The position numbers were made by a program, and so were the translations under genes. Of a DNA stretch of 64,000 nt, positions 49,455 to 56,023 are shown piece after piece (position 1 is the stretch's first letter; every line of letters starts with the position of its first letter). The notes under the pieces were generated by a model. The model worked only from the letters and a program-made list of their open reading frames with translations, did not search any database and was not told where the DNA came from. Source of the DNA: Bradyrhizobium sp. CCBAU 051011 (lineage in GTDB: Bacteria; Pseudomonadota; Alphaproteobacteria; Rhizobiales; Xanthobacteraceae); the NCBI RefSeq assembly GCF_009930815.1, contig NZ_CP022222.1:5870501-5934500 (forward strand), given 5' to 3'.

Positions 49455-49861
49455 CACCCGCGACGCGCGGACGTTGTGAGTGCTATTTACAAACCTGGAA
49501 ATTGATGTATGTGATCGCGCGCTTCCGCGATCCATGGAAACACGATGCTTCGTATAGACACCAACCCGTCAAATTATGCAGGCCAGCCGGTCGTCCGGCG
49601 CGGTCGTGCTTTGGCGTGCGTCCTTGGCGTGTATTCGATTTCTGAGTCGTACACCCAAGCAAGACTAACAGCGTAACGCGGCAGCGGGTCTTCCTCTGCC
49701 GTCGAGGCAGGGAATGATCCGCGGTAAGCCATTCGTGGCAAGCTCGAGCTTGTAATTCCTCCCTGCCTGCAAACCCAACTGTCCCATGTCGCGACTGACA
49801 TGGGACACTCCGGGGTCCGGAACGGACGTCGGCGTAAAGTATTGCAGTGAAGGAGTGTGAG
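49455..49861. other. Gene-free stretch upstream of rtcB copy 1
   Basis: About 400 nt without a gene. Its second half, 49705-49807, is dense in inverted repeats listed separately. Confidence 0.55.
49705..49807. promoter_or_regulatory. Cluster of inverted repeats preceding rtcB copy 1
   Basis: AGGCAGGGA (49705-49713) pairs with TCCCTGCCT (49760-49768), enclosing the perfect palindrome CAAGCTCGAGCTTG (49739-49752). Next, TGTCCCATGTC (49780-49790) pairs with GACATGGGACA (49797-49807), 54 nt before the rtcB start. It may be an operator and/or a structured leader. Confidence 0.65.
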
Positions 49862-51202
49862 ATGCGATCCGATCCCTACCAGGAGCGCGCCCGAGCTCTG
49901 GCCGTCGAGGCCGGGCTCGACCCCGATGCCAAGATCGATCGGCCCGGCCAGCGGCCCATGCCGACGTGGTGCCTGTTCCGCGATGCCGCGCGCAAGGAAA
50001 AGCTTGCGCGGGATGCGGAGGCCGTTGCTTCCGATATCGCGCTCAGGCCGCAAGCCGCGCAATACCAGAACAGCCCGCTCAAGATCTTCGGCAAGCATGA
50101 CGATGCCACGATCGCGCAGATGCGCAATTGCATGTCGGTCGGCAACGCGGTCGCCGGCGTGATTTGCGCGGACGGCCATCTCGGTTATGCGCAGCCGGTC
50201 GGCGGCGTGATCGCCTATGAGAAGCAGATCAGCATCTCCGGCGTCGGCTTCGACATCGGCTGCGGCAACATGGCCGTGCGCCTCGATACGCCGTTCAGCC
50301 AGATCGAGAGCAATGTCGGCACGATCATCAAGGACGTGCACAATGTGATCTCGTTCGGTGTCGGACGCACCAACGACGAGCGCGTCGAGCATGAGCTGTT
50401 CGACGACGCCGACGCGTGGCGGGAATCCGACATGGGTGCTTACCGGCAGAAGGCGGTGTCGCAGCTCGGCACCGTCGGATCTGGCAATCACTATGTCGAC
50501 CTGTTGCGCGACGAGGAGGGCTTTGTCTGGATCGGCGTGCACTTCGGCAGCCGCGGCCTCGGGCACACCAGCGCGACCCGCTACCTCAAGGCCGCGGGTG
50601 GCAAGGACGGCATGAACGTGCCGCCCGCCGTGATCGACGAGGACAGCGAGATCGGACGGCGCTACATTGCGGCGATGCAGCTCGCCGGGCGCTACTCCTA
50701 TGCCGGCCGTGAATGGGTGGTCGAGCGCGTGCGCAGGATCATCGGCGGCGAGGTCACCGACATGGTTCACAACCACCACAACTACGCGTGGCGGGAGAAC
50801 CATGGCGGCAAGGATCTGTGGGTGGTGCGTAAGGGCGCTACGCCTGCATTTCCCGGCCAGCGTGGCTTCATCGGCGGATCAATGGGGGACGATGCTGTCA
50901 TCGTCGAGGGCGTCGACAGCGAGGAGGCGAAGGCTTCGCTCTATTCGACGGTGCACGGCGCAGGCCGTCTGTTCGGCCGCAAGGAGGCCAAGCGGCGATT
51001 CACGCGCACCGAGATGGACGGCTGGCTGCAATCGCGTGGCGTGACGCTGATCGGCGCGGACCTCGACGAAAGCCCGATGGCCTACCGCCGGCTGCCGGAG
51101 GTGATCGCCGAACATTCCGGCTCGGTCAGGGTGCAGCACACGCTGCGTCCGTTCGCCGTGGCGATGGCCGGCGAGAACGAGTTCGACCCGTTCAAGGATT
51201 AA
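49862..51202 (+). CDS. rtcB: RtcB-family RNA ligase, copy 1
   Basis: RtcB joins RNA 2-prime,3-prime-cyclic-phosphate (or 3-prime-phosphate) ends to 5-prime-OH ends using GTP and manganese. This 446-residue copy has the metal ligands in FDIGCGN (Asp131, Cys134), GSGNH (His210), VHFGSRG (His227) and VHNHHNYAW, and the guanylated His365 in VHGAGR. AAGGAG precedes the ATG at 49862. Upstream lie inverted repeats; the slipin and a second RtcB follow 2.2 kb on. No archease or sigma-54 regulator RtcR is in the window. Confidence 0.92.
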   Translation: MRSDPYQERARALAVEAGLDPDAKIDRPGQRPMPTWCLFRDAARKEKLARDAEAVASDIALRPQAAQYQNSPLKIFGKHDDATIAQMRNCMSVGNAVAGVICADGHLGYAQPVGGVIAYEKQISISGVGFDIGCGNMAVRLDTPFSQIESNVGTIIKDVHNVISFGVGRTNDERVEHELFDDADAWRESDMGAYRQKAVSQLGTVGSGNHYVDLLRDEEGFVWIGVHFGSRGLGHTSATRYLKAAGGKDGMNVPPAVIDEDSEIGRRYIAAMQLAGRYSYAGREWVVERVRRIIGGEVTDMVHNHHNYAWRENHGGKDLWVVRKGATPAFPGQRGFIGGSMGDDAVIVEGVDSEEAKASLYSTVHGAGRLFGRKEAKRRFTRTEMDGWLQSRGVTLIGADLDESPMAYRRLPEVIAEHSGSVRVQHTLRPFAVAMAGENEFDPFKD

Positions 51203-51472: not shown

Positions 51473-52615
51473 ATGAGTAAGCGTAAGCGTGCGTTCGGTC
51501 CTGCGGCCCGTAGCCGCAGGAAATCCTCCCGCAAAGGCATTTCCCAATATTTTCTCGGCGGTGTCGCGGTCGCAGGCCTCGTGCTGGGCTGCGCTTGGAC
51601 CGTTTACACCAATGTGATCGGCGCCAGCGTCTATCCATCCGTGAACAGCGCCGCCTTCGAGGCGCCCGCCGTCAACAATTCGACCACGATCGCCGCCCGC
51701 CCGGTGCAGCCCGCCTTCAACGAAATCTTCGCATCGCTCGAGCAGCGCCCGCTGGTGATGCCTGCGCCGGAGAACGTCGCGTCGTCGCTGATGTTCAGCG
51801 AAAGATTCGCGGCCGCGGCGGCGCAGGGCGCGCCTTCGAGAGCTGGCGAGGCCAGGCCCGTCGAAACAACGAAACTGGCGGAGGCTTCGCCGCCGGCTGA
51901 ATCGCCGAAGGCCGTTGAGACGCCCAAGCGCGCGGAAACGCCGAAGCCAAAGGTTGCGGCCCCGGCGACCCAGCTTGCGCTCAATGTCCCGGCCCCGGCG
52001 CCGCAGGAGCCCGCGAAAGCATCCGGCAACTCCATCCGCGACATGGCGCAGCGTGCCAAGGCGGCTGTCATGTCGATCGGCGCGACGGACAGGTCGAACA
52101 TGGTCGAGAAGCTGTGGGGCAAGCAGCCGTCGAACTCGCTATTGGCCTATGCTTCCGCCGACGCCAACGTCACCGGCAGCATCATCGATACGCGAAGCCA
52201 GAATCCGATGCTCGGTGGTTCGCCGCCCTATGATCGTCAGACCGCGGTCTACGATATCGCCGCCAAGACCGTGTATCTGCCCGATGGCACCAGGCTTGAG
52301 GCACATTCCGGCCTCGGCTCCAAGATGGACGACGTTCGCTACTCGCATGTGCGCATGCAGGGCGTGACGCCACCGCACATCTACGAACTGAAGCCGCGCG
52401 AAGCGCTGTTTCACGGCGTGCCAGCGCTGCGGCTGACGCCGATCGGTGGTCAGGACAAGATCTTCAACCGCGATGGATTGCTCGCCCACAGCTACATGCT
52501 CGGGCCGAGCGGACAATCCAACGGCTGCGTCTCGTTCAAGGATTACTACGCCTTCCTCGATGCCTACAAGAATAAGGGCATCCGCCGTCTCGCGGTGCTG
52601 GCGAAGGTTCAGTAG
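51473..52615 (+). CDS. DUF2778 (Tlde1-like) L,D-transpeptidase-fold protein
   Basis: A 380-residue protein. A basic N-terminus and one helix (about 27-50) anchor it; residues 60-240 are a low-complexity Ala/Pro/Glu-rich linker. The C-terminal DUF2778/Tlde1 domain ends with AHSYMLGPSGQSNGCVSF, where His and Cys match the catalytic pair of L,D-transpeptidase-like enzymes acting on peptidoglycan. The ATG lacks a good ribosome binding site. It lies between rtcB copy 1 and the tRNA-like pair; a link to RNA repair is not evident. Confidence 0.85.
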   Translation: MSKRKRAFGPAARSRRKSSRKGISQYFLGGVAVAGLVLGCAWTVYTNVIGASVYPSVNSAAFEAPAVNNSTTIAARPVQPAFNEIFASLEQRPLVMPAPENVASSLMFSERFAAAAAQGAPSRAGEARPVETTKLAEASPPAESPKAVETPKRAETPKPKVAAPATQLALNVPAPAPQEPAKASGNSIRDMAQRAKAAVMSIGATDRSNMVEKLWGKQPSNSLLAYASADANVTGSIIDTRSQNPMLGGSPPYDRQTAVYDIAAKTVYLPDGTRLEAHSGLGSKMDDVRYSHVRMQGVTPPHIYELKPREALFHGVPALRLTPIGGQDKIFNRDGLLAHSYMLGPSGQSNGCVSFKDYYAFLDAYKNKGIRRLAVLAKVQ

Positions 52616-52671: not shown

Positions 52672-52755
52672 CGTCATTGCGAGCGAAGCGAAGCAATCCA
52701 CCCCTCCGCACGGGGATAGATGGATTGGCCCGTCGCTTCGCTCCTCGCAATGACG
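52672..52755. repeat. Dispersed palindromic repeat, family C, copy 4
   Basis: CGTCATTGCGAGCGAAGCG...CGCTTCGCTCCTCGCAATGACG, lying just after the DUF2778 gene. Confidence 0.9.
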
Positions 52756-52952
52756 GCGGAGGGAGGTGCTGCGCGCTATGATCGCCCTGCTACAGTCGAC
52801 CTCGGCGACGAAAAATTCCTGCGTGGGGGCTTGCAATCCCTGGATGCTTGCTTTATTTCCGCGCTCCTTCGCTTTGGCCATGGGTTCGGGCTCGTTGTGA
52901 TCCCGACTGGCGCGGGCCGGTCTCCGGTTTCGTGTTCCGCCGAATGAAGACC

Positions 52953-53020
52953 GTGATTGTAGCTCATGGAGAGCATCGGGATAAAACCCGAAGGCATCGG
53001 TTCGATTCCGATCTGTCGCA
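52953..53020 (+). tRNA. Degenerate tRNA-like RNA 1
   Basis: The sequence folds as a cloverleaf. The acceptor GTGATTG pairs with CTGTCGC (four Watson-Crick, two wobble pairs, one mismatch). TA is followed by D-stem GCTC/GAGC with a short ATGGA loop. The anticodon stem TCGGG/CCCGA has a six-base ATAAAA loop, and the T-stem ATCGG/CCGAT a canonical TTCGATT loop. No CCA is encoded. The small anticodon loop makes normal decoding unlikely. It ends three bases before a second tRNA-like unit, upstream of the slipin-rtcB pair. Confidence 0.6.
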
Positions 53021-53023
53021 CAA

Positions 53024-53097
53024 CAAAGGATAGCTCAGTTTGGTAGAGCAGATGACTATGAATCATCCTGTCGCGGGTTCGAATCCTGCTCCAGCGC
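53024..53097 (+). tRNA. Degenerate tRNA-like RNA 2
   Basis: TA then D-stem GCTC/GAGC with loop AGTTTGGTA, anticodon stem GATGA/TCATC with loop CTATGAA, variable CTGTC, and T-stem GCGGG/CCTGC with the canonical loop TTCGAAT. The acceptor CAAAGGA/TCCAGCG pairs at only four of seven positions. The anticodon would be ATG (His CAU), unusual in bacteria. No CCA is encoded. The elbow arms are well kept and the acceptor is not, which argues against a standard translating tRNA. Confidence 0.65.
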
Positions 53098-53432
53098 TCC
53101 GTTTCAGCCTAAAAAGCTGATACCTCTGAAGGGGACCGGACGCGCGCTTCAGTCGCGGTCCGGCCGTCTTGCCGAAAGGCTTTTCGTCCGAACTCAGACA
53201 CTGTGAGACCGGCTTTGCGCCGCGGTGGATACCGCTTGCGCTGATGCCGGGTGGCTACGTGCGAACGCTCGACTTGCGTCGAGCGATCGCACGCGTGCGC
53301 CCGTCGTCGCGCAGGCTCAAACCCGGCCCGCCGATTTTTCAGGAAGCGTCGTCCGCGTCCTCACGTCCTTTGCAAAACGAAACCCGCTTTCCGACCCCGC
53401 GAGGGCCGGAGGGCAAACCATGGAGGCGTGCC
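53098..53432. other. Stretch between the tRNA-like pair and the slipin gene
   Basis: About 335 nt with no convincing gene; a frame continuous with the slipin exists but lacks family resemblance. A hairpin CCGGAC/GTCCGG with an inner GCG/CGC lies near 53137-53162 and could end or process the tRNA-like transcript. Confidence 0.45.
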
Positions 53433-54584
53433 ATGACCTGGCATTTGCTGATGAAGACGCTGACGGTGAAGGATGGCGAGCGCGCCTTGCTGACGCGCAA
53501 CGGCAGGCTCGAGCGCGTGCTCGAACCCGGTCGTCACCGGCTGATCGATCTGCGGCGTCAGTTGATGGCGGAGATCTTCAACGTCGTTCGCACCGAATTT
53601 CCCGCGGAGCGCTACGCGGTGCTGAAGGCCGCGCGGCCTGATCTCGCGGCGGAATTGTTCGAGGCGGTGGAGACGAAGGCGAACGAGATCGCCATCGTCA
53701 GCCTCGACGGCCGTCCCGTGCACCTGATGACGCCCTGGCAGGCGCGCGTCTACTGGAAGGTCGCAACCTCAATCGATGTCGAGCGCATCGATGTGGCCAG
53801 CGATCCCCGCGTGACCGCGCGTCACCTGGCGATGATCGAGCGCAACCGTCCCACCATCGTGACGGAAGCGGTGGTCGAGAACCACGAGGCCGGTCTGCTC
53901 TACGTCGAGGGCCGGCTGGTGGAGCGGCTCGCGCCCGGCCGGCACGCGTTCTGGATCGCCGGCCGCAAGATCGAGGTGAAGCGCCTCGATCTGCGTCCCC
54001 AGGCGGTCGAGATCACCGCGCAGGAAATGCTGACGAAGGATCGCATCGCCCTGCGTGTGACCTTGACGGCATTCCGCCGGATCGTCGACCCCGAGCGCGT
54101 GGTCGCGGCCGTGCCCGACGTGGATGCGTGGCTGTACCGCCTGGTGCAGTTCGCGATCCGCGAGGCGGTGGCAGGCCGCACGCTCGACGAGGTGCTCTCG
54201 GCGAAGGCTGCGCTGGACGCGGAGCTGCGGGACTATGTCCGCGACCGTGTCGTGGACAGCGGTGTCGAGGTCACGGAGCTCGGTGTGAAGGATGTGATCC
54301 TGCCCGGCGAGATCCGTGAACTCGTCAACAAGGTCGTGGAGGCGGAGCGGGTCGCGAAGGCGAACCTGATCCGCCGGCAGGAAGAGACCGCGGCAACGCG
54401 CTCGCTCCTGAACACCGCCCGGTTGATGGAGGAGAACCCTCTGCTGCTGCGGCTCAAGGAGCTGGAGTCGCTGGAGCGGCTCGTTGAGAAGGTCGGCCGG
54501 ATCGACCTGCATGCAGGCGACGGGCAGGGCCTCGACGCGCTGCTGAGCAAGCTGGTCCGCATCAAGTCCACGGAGAACGCGTAA
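53433..54584 (+). CDS. Slipin-type SPFH/band-7 protein without membrane helix
   Basis: A 383-residue SPFH protein. GGAGG lies seven bases before the ATG at 53433. The band-7 domain spans about residues 105-295 (VENHEAGLLYVEGRLVERL, GRHAFWIAGRKIEVKRLDLR, VDSGVEVTELGVKDVILPGE), followed by a helical tail starting VNKVVEAERVAKANLIRRQE. A second, partial SPFH-like repeat is suggested in residues 5-40 (VKDGERALLTRNGRLERVLEPG). Unlike membrane slipins there is no N-terminal hydrophobic hairpin. It lies 80 nt before rtcB copy 2. SPFH proteins form large rings or scaffolds. Confidence 0.88.
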   Translation: MTWHLLMKTLTVKDGERALLTRNGRLERVLEPGRHRLIDLRRQLMAEIFNVVRTEFPAERYAVLKAARPDLAAELFEAVETKANEIAIVSLDGRPVHLMTPWQARVYWKVATSIDVERIDVASDPRVTARHLAMIERNRPTIVTEAVVENHEAGLLYVEGRLVERLAPGRHAFWIAGRKIEVKRLDLRPQAVEITAQEMLTKDRIALRVTLTAFRRIVDPERVVAAVPDVDAWLYRLVQFAIREAVAGRTLDEVLSAKAALDAELRDYVRDRVVDSGVEVTELGVKDVILPGEIRELVNKVVEAERVAKANLIRRQEETAATRSLLNTARLMEENPLLLRLKELESLERLVEKVGRIDLHAGDGQGLDALLSKLVRIKSTENA

Positions 54585-54664: not shown

Positions 54665-56023
54665 ATGAGGGTATCTCAGACCATTGACGGCAACACCCTG
54701 ATCGCCTGGGGCTTTCGACCCGGGCGCTGGTTCAAGGATGCCTTGGAGACCGCCAGCATCATGCGTGCCGGCGGCGCGGATGACGATGCGATCTTTGTCG
54801 CGCTGCAGGCCATGCAGCCGATCGAAACACTGATGCGGACCAACGGCCTCCAATTCTCGATGCTGATCGATGCCGAGAACGAGTTGGAACGTGACAACAT
54901 CGCAGCGGTGGCCCAGCACATGGATGCGTTGATGCGAGTCCCGACGATCGTGGCCGGCGCCGTGATGCCCGATGCCTGCCCGTCGGGCACGGCGATCGGC
55001 ACGATCCCGGTCGGCGGAGTCGTGGCATGTGACGATGCGATCCATCCTGGATTCCATTCGTCGGACATTTGCTGCTCGGTCGCCATTACCGTGTTTGCTC
55101 GCAAGGATGATCCCAAGCGCATTCTTGATGCCGTTCAGGATGTCACCCATTTCGGTCCGGGGGGCCGAGACGGCATTCACATGCCGCCCGACGAGATTAT
55201 GTCGAAGTTTGCCGGCAATCCGTTCTTGAGGGGACTCGAGAGGTTCGCGATCGGTCACTACGCCACGCAAGGCGACGGCAATCACTTTGCCTATGTCGGT
55301 CACCTCAAATCGACGGGTCATGCCGCATTGGTGACGCACCATGGCTCTCGCGGCCTTGGTGCCCAGGTTTACAAGCGCGGAATGGCTATCGCCAGAAAGC
55401 ACACGGCGATTCACGCGCCGAAGACCCCCGACCACAGTGCTTGGATCAAGGCGTCAAGCGATGACGGCCGTGCGTATTGGGAAGCTTTGCAGATCGTGCG
55501 ACTCTGGACCAAGGCCAACCACCATGCGATCCACGACCTTACCGCCACGAAGATCGGAAATGGTGTCGCCGATCGCTTCTGGAACGAACACAACTTCGTC
55601 TTCAGAAAGACAGATGGCCTGTTCTATCACGGCAAGAGCGCTACCCCGAACTGGGCCGGTTTCTCGGATGATGATGACGGGCGCACCATCGTTCCGCTCA
55701 ACATGGCCGAGCCGGTCCTGCTTCTGAAGCACAAGGACAACAAGGACGCACTTGGCTTCGCTCCGCACGGCGCCGGGCGCAACGTCGGACGCAAGGCTTT
55801 CCTGCGCGAGAACAAGCCTCGGCTGCCGACCGGCATCGATGCCCGCTTCTACTGCGGTAAGCCCGACCTGTCGGAACTGCCGGAGGCTTATAAGAACGCC
55901 GCATCGGTACGATCGCAGATCACGAAATACGGCCTCGGCGAGGTGATCGATGAGGTGATCCCGTACGGCTCGATCATGGCCGGCGATTGGGAAGCCGATG
56001 CGCCATGGCGGAAGGCCAGATGA
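54665..56023 (+). CDS. RtcB-family RNA ligase, copy 2 (divergent)
   Basis: A 452-residue RtcB paralogue. The core metal ligands are kept: HSSDICCSVAI (Asp134, Cys137), GDGNHF, THHGSRGLG and NEHNF; the guanylation His368 is in PHGAGRN. It differs from copy 1 in key surroundings: MPDACPSG replaces the usual DxH motif, and HGKSATPN stands for the RKGATPA motif. It is thus likely active but with different RNA specificity. It follows the slipin gene on the same strand, and the pair probably forms an operon. Confidence 0.9.
   Translation: MRVSQTIDGNTLIAWGFRPGRWFKDALETASIMRAGGADDDAIFVALQAMQPIETLMRTNGLQFSMLIDAENELERDNIAAVAQHMDALMRVPTIVAGAVMPDACPSGTAIGTIPVGGVVACDDAIHPGFHSSDICCSVAITVFARKDDPKRILDAVQDVTHFGPGGRDGIHMPPDEIMSKFAGNPFLRGLERFAIGHYATQGDGNHFAYVGHLKSTGHAALVTHHGSRGLGAQVYKRGMAIARKHTAIHAPKTPDHSAWIKASSDDGRAYWEALQIVRLWTKANHHAIHDLTATKIGNGVADRFWNEHNFVFRKTDGLFYHGKSATPNWAGFSDDDDGRTIVPLNMAEPVLLLKHKDNKDALGFAPHGAGRNVGRKAFLRENKPRLPTGIDARFYCGKPDLSELPEAYKNAASVRSQITKYGLGEVIDEVIPYGSIMAGDWEADAPWRKAR

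Follow-up and report, generated by a model that had tools for sequence, protein, structure and literature searches.

A conserved slipin leader region with tandem tRNA-like cloverleaves and a changing anticodon, associated with RNA-repair genes

Two tRNA-like cloverleaves ahead of a slipin gene of Bradyrhizobium sp. CCBAU 051011 appear to mark a widespread RNA, carried on genes of the tRNA-damage response, whose cloverleaf body is conserved and whose anticodon is not. Since the bodies persist and the anticodon is free to vary, the elements are probably tRNA mimics that act in an RNA-damage response and not in protein synthesis. The tRNA-mimic part of this reading is well supported, and comparison with published systems suggests that the mimics probably serve as a bait or sensor for tRNA-cutting nucleases. 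Our preferred reading as a whole, that both cloverleaves are parts of one tRNA-mimic leader RNA that acts as this bait or sensor in an RNA-repair response, is close to evenly balanced, and we hold it tentatively. The position of the cloverleaves, their conservation, the compensatory changes in their stems, the variability of the loop, and the linkage to slipin, RtcB, RtcR, and RlaP genes were observed directly.

The window, by which we mean the whole 64,000-nt stretch that was analysed, lies on a 9.1-Mb chromosome. Its relevant features are all on the + strand, in the order RtcB, Tlde1-domain gene, leader with both elements, slipin, and divergent RtcB (Table 1). An initial annotation, made from the sequence alone, had described tandem tRNA-like cloverleaves about three bases apart and had proposed a covariance-model search as a check. 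This search confirmed the description, since both elements matched the Rfam tRNA family RF00005 on the + strand above its cut-off of 29 bits (52953-53020, 49.2 bits; 53028-53092, 47.9 bits). RF00005 was the only Rfam family, T-box included, to match the leader at the gathering cut-off. ARAGORN called element 1 alone, as tRNA-???, and missed element 2. Our cloverleaf parse agreed with the initial annotation on the canonical TTCRANN T loops (TTCGATT and TTCGAAT), on the six-base anticodon loop of element 1 (ATAAAA, 52981-52986), and on the anticodon ATG (53058-53060) in the element 2 loop CTATGAA (53056-53062). Neither element carries CCA, as was also described, because ACAA follows element 1 and CTCC follows element 2. 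The weak acceptor stems attributed to both elements hold for element 2, in which three pairs remain on the inner side and one on the outer side in the window, and do not hold for element 1, in which 6 of 7 positions are paired, two as G-U, and whose acceptor is sound in relatives. The initial annotation covered the cloverleaves; the leader, the slipin gene, and the RNA-repair neighbors lay outside its view.

Alignment of 68 loci (L054, L099, L101, and L106-L115 were left out) delimited a conserved non-coding block of ~540 nt, from ~52831 to 53372, which we infer to be one transcript. Mean conservation was 0.99 at 53133-53152, within the 3' part, and the stretch 52866-53432 folded 4.1 sd better than shuffled sequences (z -4.1). 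No intrinsic terminator was found between the leader and slipin in the window. The promoter placed by eye at the start of the block is tentative because a consensus promoter scanner gave none at that site. A palindromic intergenic repeat (GTCATTGCGAGCGAAGCGAAGCAATCC ... reverse complement) occupies positions 52673-52760, just 5' of the leader.

Table 1. Features of the slipin locus in the window, with the basis for each assignment.
Feature	Position	Strand	Basis
RtcB RNA ligase gene, upstream	49847..51202	+	PF01139, E 4.5e-65; solved RtcB, E 9.6e-28
Tlde1-domain gene	51473-52615	+	Tlde1 domain
Putative sigma70-like promoter, TTGCAA-17-TATTTC	52831..52859	+	By eye; start of conserved block (68-locus alignment)
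Leader 5' domain motif, YGGYGCR-hairpin-GYRTDCCG	52908..52939	+	Loose pattern; relatives' loci
Element 1 (tRNA-like cloverleaf; acceptor stem; six-base loop ATAAAA; ACAA follows)	52953..53023	+	RF00005; parse
Element 2 (tRNA-like cloverleaf; 3-bp acceptor; loop CTATGAA)	53024..53096	+	RF00005; covariation; variable loop
Leader 3' part with hairpins	53097..53372	+	Conservation; folding
Slipin-type SPFH/Band 7 gene	53433..54584	+	PF01145, E 1.8e-30
Divergent RtcB paralogue, HGAGR motif retained	54665..56023	+	PF01139, E 1.4e-24; alignment to solved RtcB

The cloverleaves recur upstream of slipin well beyond this strain. A scan with the slipin protein provided the best 80 of 142 loci, which together with the window made 81; the closest relatives among those best 80 are from Bradyrhizobium, and the slipin loci include Alpha- and Gammaproteobacteria and Acidobacteriota. 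A cloverleaf scoring at least 17 lay within 800 nt upstream of slipin in 80 of the 81 loci, compared to 0/81 on the antisense strand and 0/1666 in windows taken elsewhere from these loci, which is far more than chance would give; these figures come from a parser built for tRNA shape, with windows, thresholds, and the 5' motif pattern set after the loci had been viewed. Element 2 was parsed in 79/81 and element 1 in 68/81 of these loci, L065 (mutated D arm) and L111 (a spurious low-scoring match) having been dropped from the element 2 counts; L093, with its short reading frame, was left out of the slipin tree. Leaders carry one to three cloverleaves, with a single one in the Acidobacteria and Steroidobacter loci. 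At L108 and L109, inspection by eye showed a single cloverleaf followed by a hairpin with a second T arm only, ~290-340 nt 5' of slipin, and the Burkholderia loci L198 and L127 showed an acceptor-T-arm mini-helix at the element 1 position.

The slipin subfamily itself (E 1e-60 or better) was found in 23/398 genomes of the phylum. When a slightly looser T-loop pattern was allowed, an upstream cloverleaf scored at least 17 in 20 of these 23 carriers and at least 16 in 22, the remaining carrier (L135) having just 88 nt of upstream sequence. Distribution is patchy within the family as well, where 8/198 genomes gave a match of at least 79% identity, one of them (G095) in pieces. That two-piece match (L013), with no cloverleaf in the stretch examined, is perhaps a decayed copy. 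A second conserved feature, the 5' motif YGGYGCR-12 to 34 nt-GYRTDCC, preceded the cloverleaves in 79 of the 81 loci in its loose form, compared to 3/81 antisense and 42/1974 control windows, and in 73 of the 81 in its strict form, compared to 18/1974 control windows; it was also present in 9/22 further loci and in all four named records (E. coli, Citrobacter, Photobacterium, and Subdoligranulum). By eye, reduced traces of the mimics were seen in enterobacteria and one Bacillota record. The sole visible remnant in E. coli and Citrobacter is a T-arm stub, which counts against our preferred reading.

Covariation was counted in 38 of the 68 distinct element 2 sequences, hand-picked for diversity. 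The anticodon stem was 100% paired, with compensatory changes on both sides at all five pairs, so that the compensatory changes sought by the orthologue comparison that the initial annotation had suggested are present; the T stem was 99.5% paired and the D stem was invariant. By contrast with these arms, only the inner three acceptor pairs of element 2 were kept; pairing at the outer four positions was seen in 9 to 16 of the 38 sequences. Among relatives, 61/67 element 1 acceptors had at least 6 of their 7 pairs when a one-base bulge was allowed, a level reached by 7.5% of random 7-mers, and NCCA follows the acceptor in 28/67 loci. Its anticodon loop ranges from 4 to 9 nt, with 7 nt in just 23/68 and a GNRA tetraloop in 8. 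The damage is thus divided: element 2 keeps the anticodon arm with a 3-bp acceptor, and element 1 keeps the acceptor, and sometimes CCA, with an irregular loop. The seven-pair acceptor stem of a functional tRNA is lacking in element 2 and is found in relatives in element 1 alone. Random decay with arms not conserved in relatives, which the initial annotation had set against its own interpretation, was looked for and not found. Its proposal of selection for tRNA shape and not for decoding is supported by the kept stems and varying anticodon. Its interpretation as a whole holds in part, since an acceptor stem is retained in element 1, with NCCA in those 28 loci, and a broken charging end is thus not common to the two elements.

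The element 2 anticodon changes on a body that scarcely does. Among 52 Bradyrhizobium-type loci (55 minus L040, L054, and L065), there were 26 distinct element 2 loops, and the D, T, and anticodon stems of the same loci occurred in one to three forms per strand. Even when bodies were identical (acceptor and variable loop left out; 54 loci, minus L065), the loop differed in 75 of 104 locus pairs. A genuine tRNA served as control: the tRNA-Asn loop CTGTTAA was found in 59/59 genomes of the genus with a match (60 searched), of which 26 had a changed anticodon stem and an unchanged loop; this sample combined the top 30 matches, each with the same sequence as the query, with the other 29 matching genomes. 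The anticodon conservation expected among orthologues of a functional tRNA, seen here as the one loop of tRNA-Asn, is therefore absent from element 2. Similar variation was seen elsewhere, with three loops in three genomes of one genus (L125, L126, and L129) and three in three acidobacterial loci (L113, L114, and L115); as a counter-example, L124 and L128, also from one genus, have the same element 2 loop.

Element 2 loop length and flanking bases are more constrained. The loop is 7 nt in 68/79 loci, with A37 in 65 and U33 in 55 of those 68, and is not wholly free. Across 44 seven-base loops, sites 34, 35, and 36 required 15, 6, and 11 steps, a sum reached by 0.7% of random triples of fourfold synonymous sites, at which the mean was 4.2; variable-loop sites of the same element required 11, 18, and 12. 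The anticodon sites thus exceed fourfold synonymous sites and do not exceed free variable-loop sites, so that diversifying selection on the anticodon is possible and relaxed constraint explains the rate equally well. Loop variability and step counts together indicate that the anticodon has at least been released from decoding. Pairing of the element 2 loop with the rest of the leader was considered and rejected, as complementary 5-mers numbered 0.44 per locus compared to 0.55 (sd 0.07) in shuffles.

Slipin, a membrane-scaffold gene, is frequently associated with RNA-repair enzymes, and the genes around the leader point to RNA repair to a degree that depends on lineage. Among the 14 more distant proteobacterial genomes with this slipin (our "same phylum" set), RtcB lay within ~5 kb of slipin in 14/14, RtcR in the same locus in 8/14, and RlaP in 6/14. 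Of the 8 RtcR loci within L117-L138, 5 had a sigma54-type box ahead of the leader; the other 14 loci of that series yielded one such box, inside element 1. A Burkholderia cenocepacia record likewise has a sigma54-type box before the leader. The order in Citrobacter is rtcR-slipin-nucleotidyltransferase; in E. coli, whose copy of the nucleotidyltransferase gene is RlaP, the pair slipin-RlaP is accompanied by a sigma54-type box, and a query made of the E. coli leader and slipin start was covered to at least 80% in 1620/5426 genomes. A zeta toxin family gene is annotated beside the slipin-nucleotidyltransferase pair in an E. coli chromosome record (L233).

In the window, an RtcB gene lies on either side of the leader and slipin, as would be expected of an RtcR-controlled RNA-repair operon, and the window genome has a third RtcB and one RlaP elsewhere. 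However, RtcR control was rejected for this genome, in which RtcR had no match (nor did RtcA or TROVE, PF05731) and no sigma54-type box occurs within 1033 nt upstream of slipin. RtcB was present within the fetched flanks of 15 of the best 80 of 142 slipin loci, including L111, which is not alphaproteobacterial, and it gave no match in 10 of the 13 further genomes of the class that carry this slipin and were searched. These 10 genomes rule out RtcB as an obligatory partner. The slipin-RtcB link is loose in Alphaproteobacteria, and for this reason we regard leader plus slipin as the constant unit. The window genome carries 25 tRNA genes in one array (ARAGORN; G000:C1:5329991-5335253, L178), separate from its dispersed tRNA genes, which cover 19 amino acids, a point in favor of our preferred reading. 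This array recalls the Anabaena trn operon, described in the available part of PMC10272220 as co-regulated with rtcB and a slipin gene.

The reading that we prefer would work as follows. One leader RNA with both cloverleaves would be transcribed before slipin, and this slipin gene would be part of a bacterial RNA-repair operon or derived from one. In element 2, an anticodon arm of normal appearance would be displayed by a body that is probably not chargeable, and element 1 would display acceptor and T arms, mostly with no usable anticodon; both would bait or sense nucleases directed at the anticodon loops of tRNAs. Cleavage of element 2 would produce ends like those that RtcB joins and, in genomes with RtcR, a 5' half like those known to activate this regulator; in genomes with no RtcR, the cut would act in cis on the slipin message. 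A free anticodon could be matched, lineage by lineage, to the nucleases encountered. We infer the bait or sensor role from published work, as far as the available text of each source goes: 5' tRNA halves with a terminal cyclic phosphate activate RtcR, most tRNA cuts fall in anticodon loops, and the tRNA-like YrlA has been suggested to be a competitive inhibitor of a nuclease (all PMC7790460), while RlaP is predicted to restore lost nucleotides ahead of ligation (PMC7824862). Against this reading, Salmonella YrlA itself was reported to be uncut in the same portion of PMC7790460. Also set against it are the unmatched RtcR, RtcA, and TROVE in the window genome, the 10 same-class slipin carriers with no RtcB match, and anticodon sites that are no faster than the free variable-loop sites. 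A more specific version, which we offer as a conjecture of low confidence, is a tripwire RNA composed of an acceptor-half and an anticodon-half mimic, whose exchangeable loop would bait lineage-specific nucleases, with the cut reported to slipin or RNA repair and the tripwire reset by RtcB where present.

The strongest rival is that the cloverleaves are processing or stability handles, with the D/T core and acceptor recognized by RNase P, tRNase Z, or elbow-binding proteins that would set the ends of the leader or slipin message, and with an anticodon that varies because it is unread. We judge this explanation to be possible and rather doubtful. It would account for the kept acceptor of element 1 immediately ahead of element 2, with NCCA in 28/67 loci, for an anticodon that evolves like free variable-loop sites, and for distant relatives that retain only a T-arm stub. 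However, element 2 has no outer acceptor and would be a poor substrate for RNase P or tRNase Z. Moreover, the predominance of seven-base loops with U33 and A37 in element 2 is more than an unread loop requires, and its anticodon sites are 37% GC compared to 91% at fourfold sites, although variable-loop sites of the element are AT-rich too.

Two further explanations retain the RNA in other roles. The leader might act in cis, with a tRNA-binding protein (slipin, RtcB, or a modification enzyme) repressing slipin translation until damaged tRNAs compete for it. This arrangement is consistent with a leader that precedes slipin even where RtcB or RtcR was not found and with the lack of an intrinsic terminator noted above, but the present analysis provides no protein partner, and the kept anticodon arm of element 2 with its changing triplet is left unexplained; we consider it improbable. 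Far less probable is that the elements are functional, unusual stress tRNAs that, for example, read several codons with one amino acid. Both elements score above the Rfam tRNA cut-off, many element 2 loops resemble real anticodon loops, and the element 2 body resembles the tRNA-Lys of the genome; set against this are the 3-bp acceptor of element 2 across 38 diverse sequences and the scarcity of seven-base loops in element 1. A recent copy of a present tRNA was rejected as the source of either element (best match 75% over 57 bases for element 1; 81% over 59 bases, to tRNA-Lys(CTT), for element 2), and an old origin of element 2 from tRNA-Lys is possible from its sequence. Finally, decay of tRNA pseudogenes or integration-site remnants, which would fit an element 1 with no anticodon called and an element 2 missed by ARAGORN, is scarcely credible and was ruled out because location and stems are conserved, with compensatory changes, across Proteobacteria and Acidobacteriota.

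If our preferred reading of a bait or sensor is true, the leader would show how bacteria detect tRNA-cutting toxins, and the unexplained tie between slipin and RNA repair would become directly testable. Within the literature that was covered, which does not include the main RNA-repair review (Burroughs and Aravind, 2016), we found no description of tRNA-like elements upstream of slipin, nor of tandem cloverleaves in a slipin leader that are each half broken, in complementary fashion, and whose anticodons change.

tRNA mimicry in RNA-repair operons is already known from Y RNAs. According to the available part of PMC7790460, the YrlA/YrlB RNAs of the Salmonella rsr-yrlBA-rtcBA operon are likewise noncoding RNAs with a tRNA-like domain in an RtcR-controlled, RtcB-linked operon. 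The present cloverleaves differ in lying in a slipin leader, in a genome in which TROVE/Ro60 was unmatched, and the leader scored 20.9 bits against the YrlA Y RNA family (RF02553), below its gathering cut-off of 69. RtcR, RtcB, and RlaP genes share loci here in part of the lineages, as in the RtcR-RtcBA operon, but our searches were anchored by slipin instead of RtcA; the search for RtcA covered the window genome, which matched neither RtcR nor RtcA. The rtc locus of Pseudomonas aeruginosa PA14 embeds an SPFH gene, PaFlo8, with RtcA, RtcB, and RtcR, and the word tRNA occurs 0 times in the available text of that source (PMC13086221). Although its regulator differs, the Anabaena TrcR regulon, as presented in the accessible part of PMC10272220, offers a further parallel, in which the slipin gene alr0740 and rtcB are co-regulated with the trn tRNA array under translational stress.
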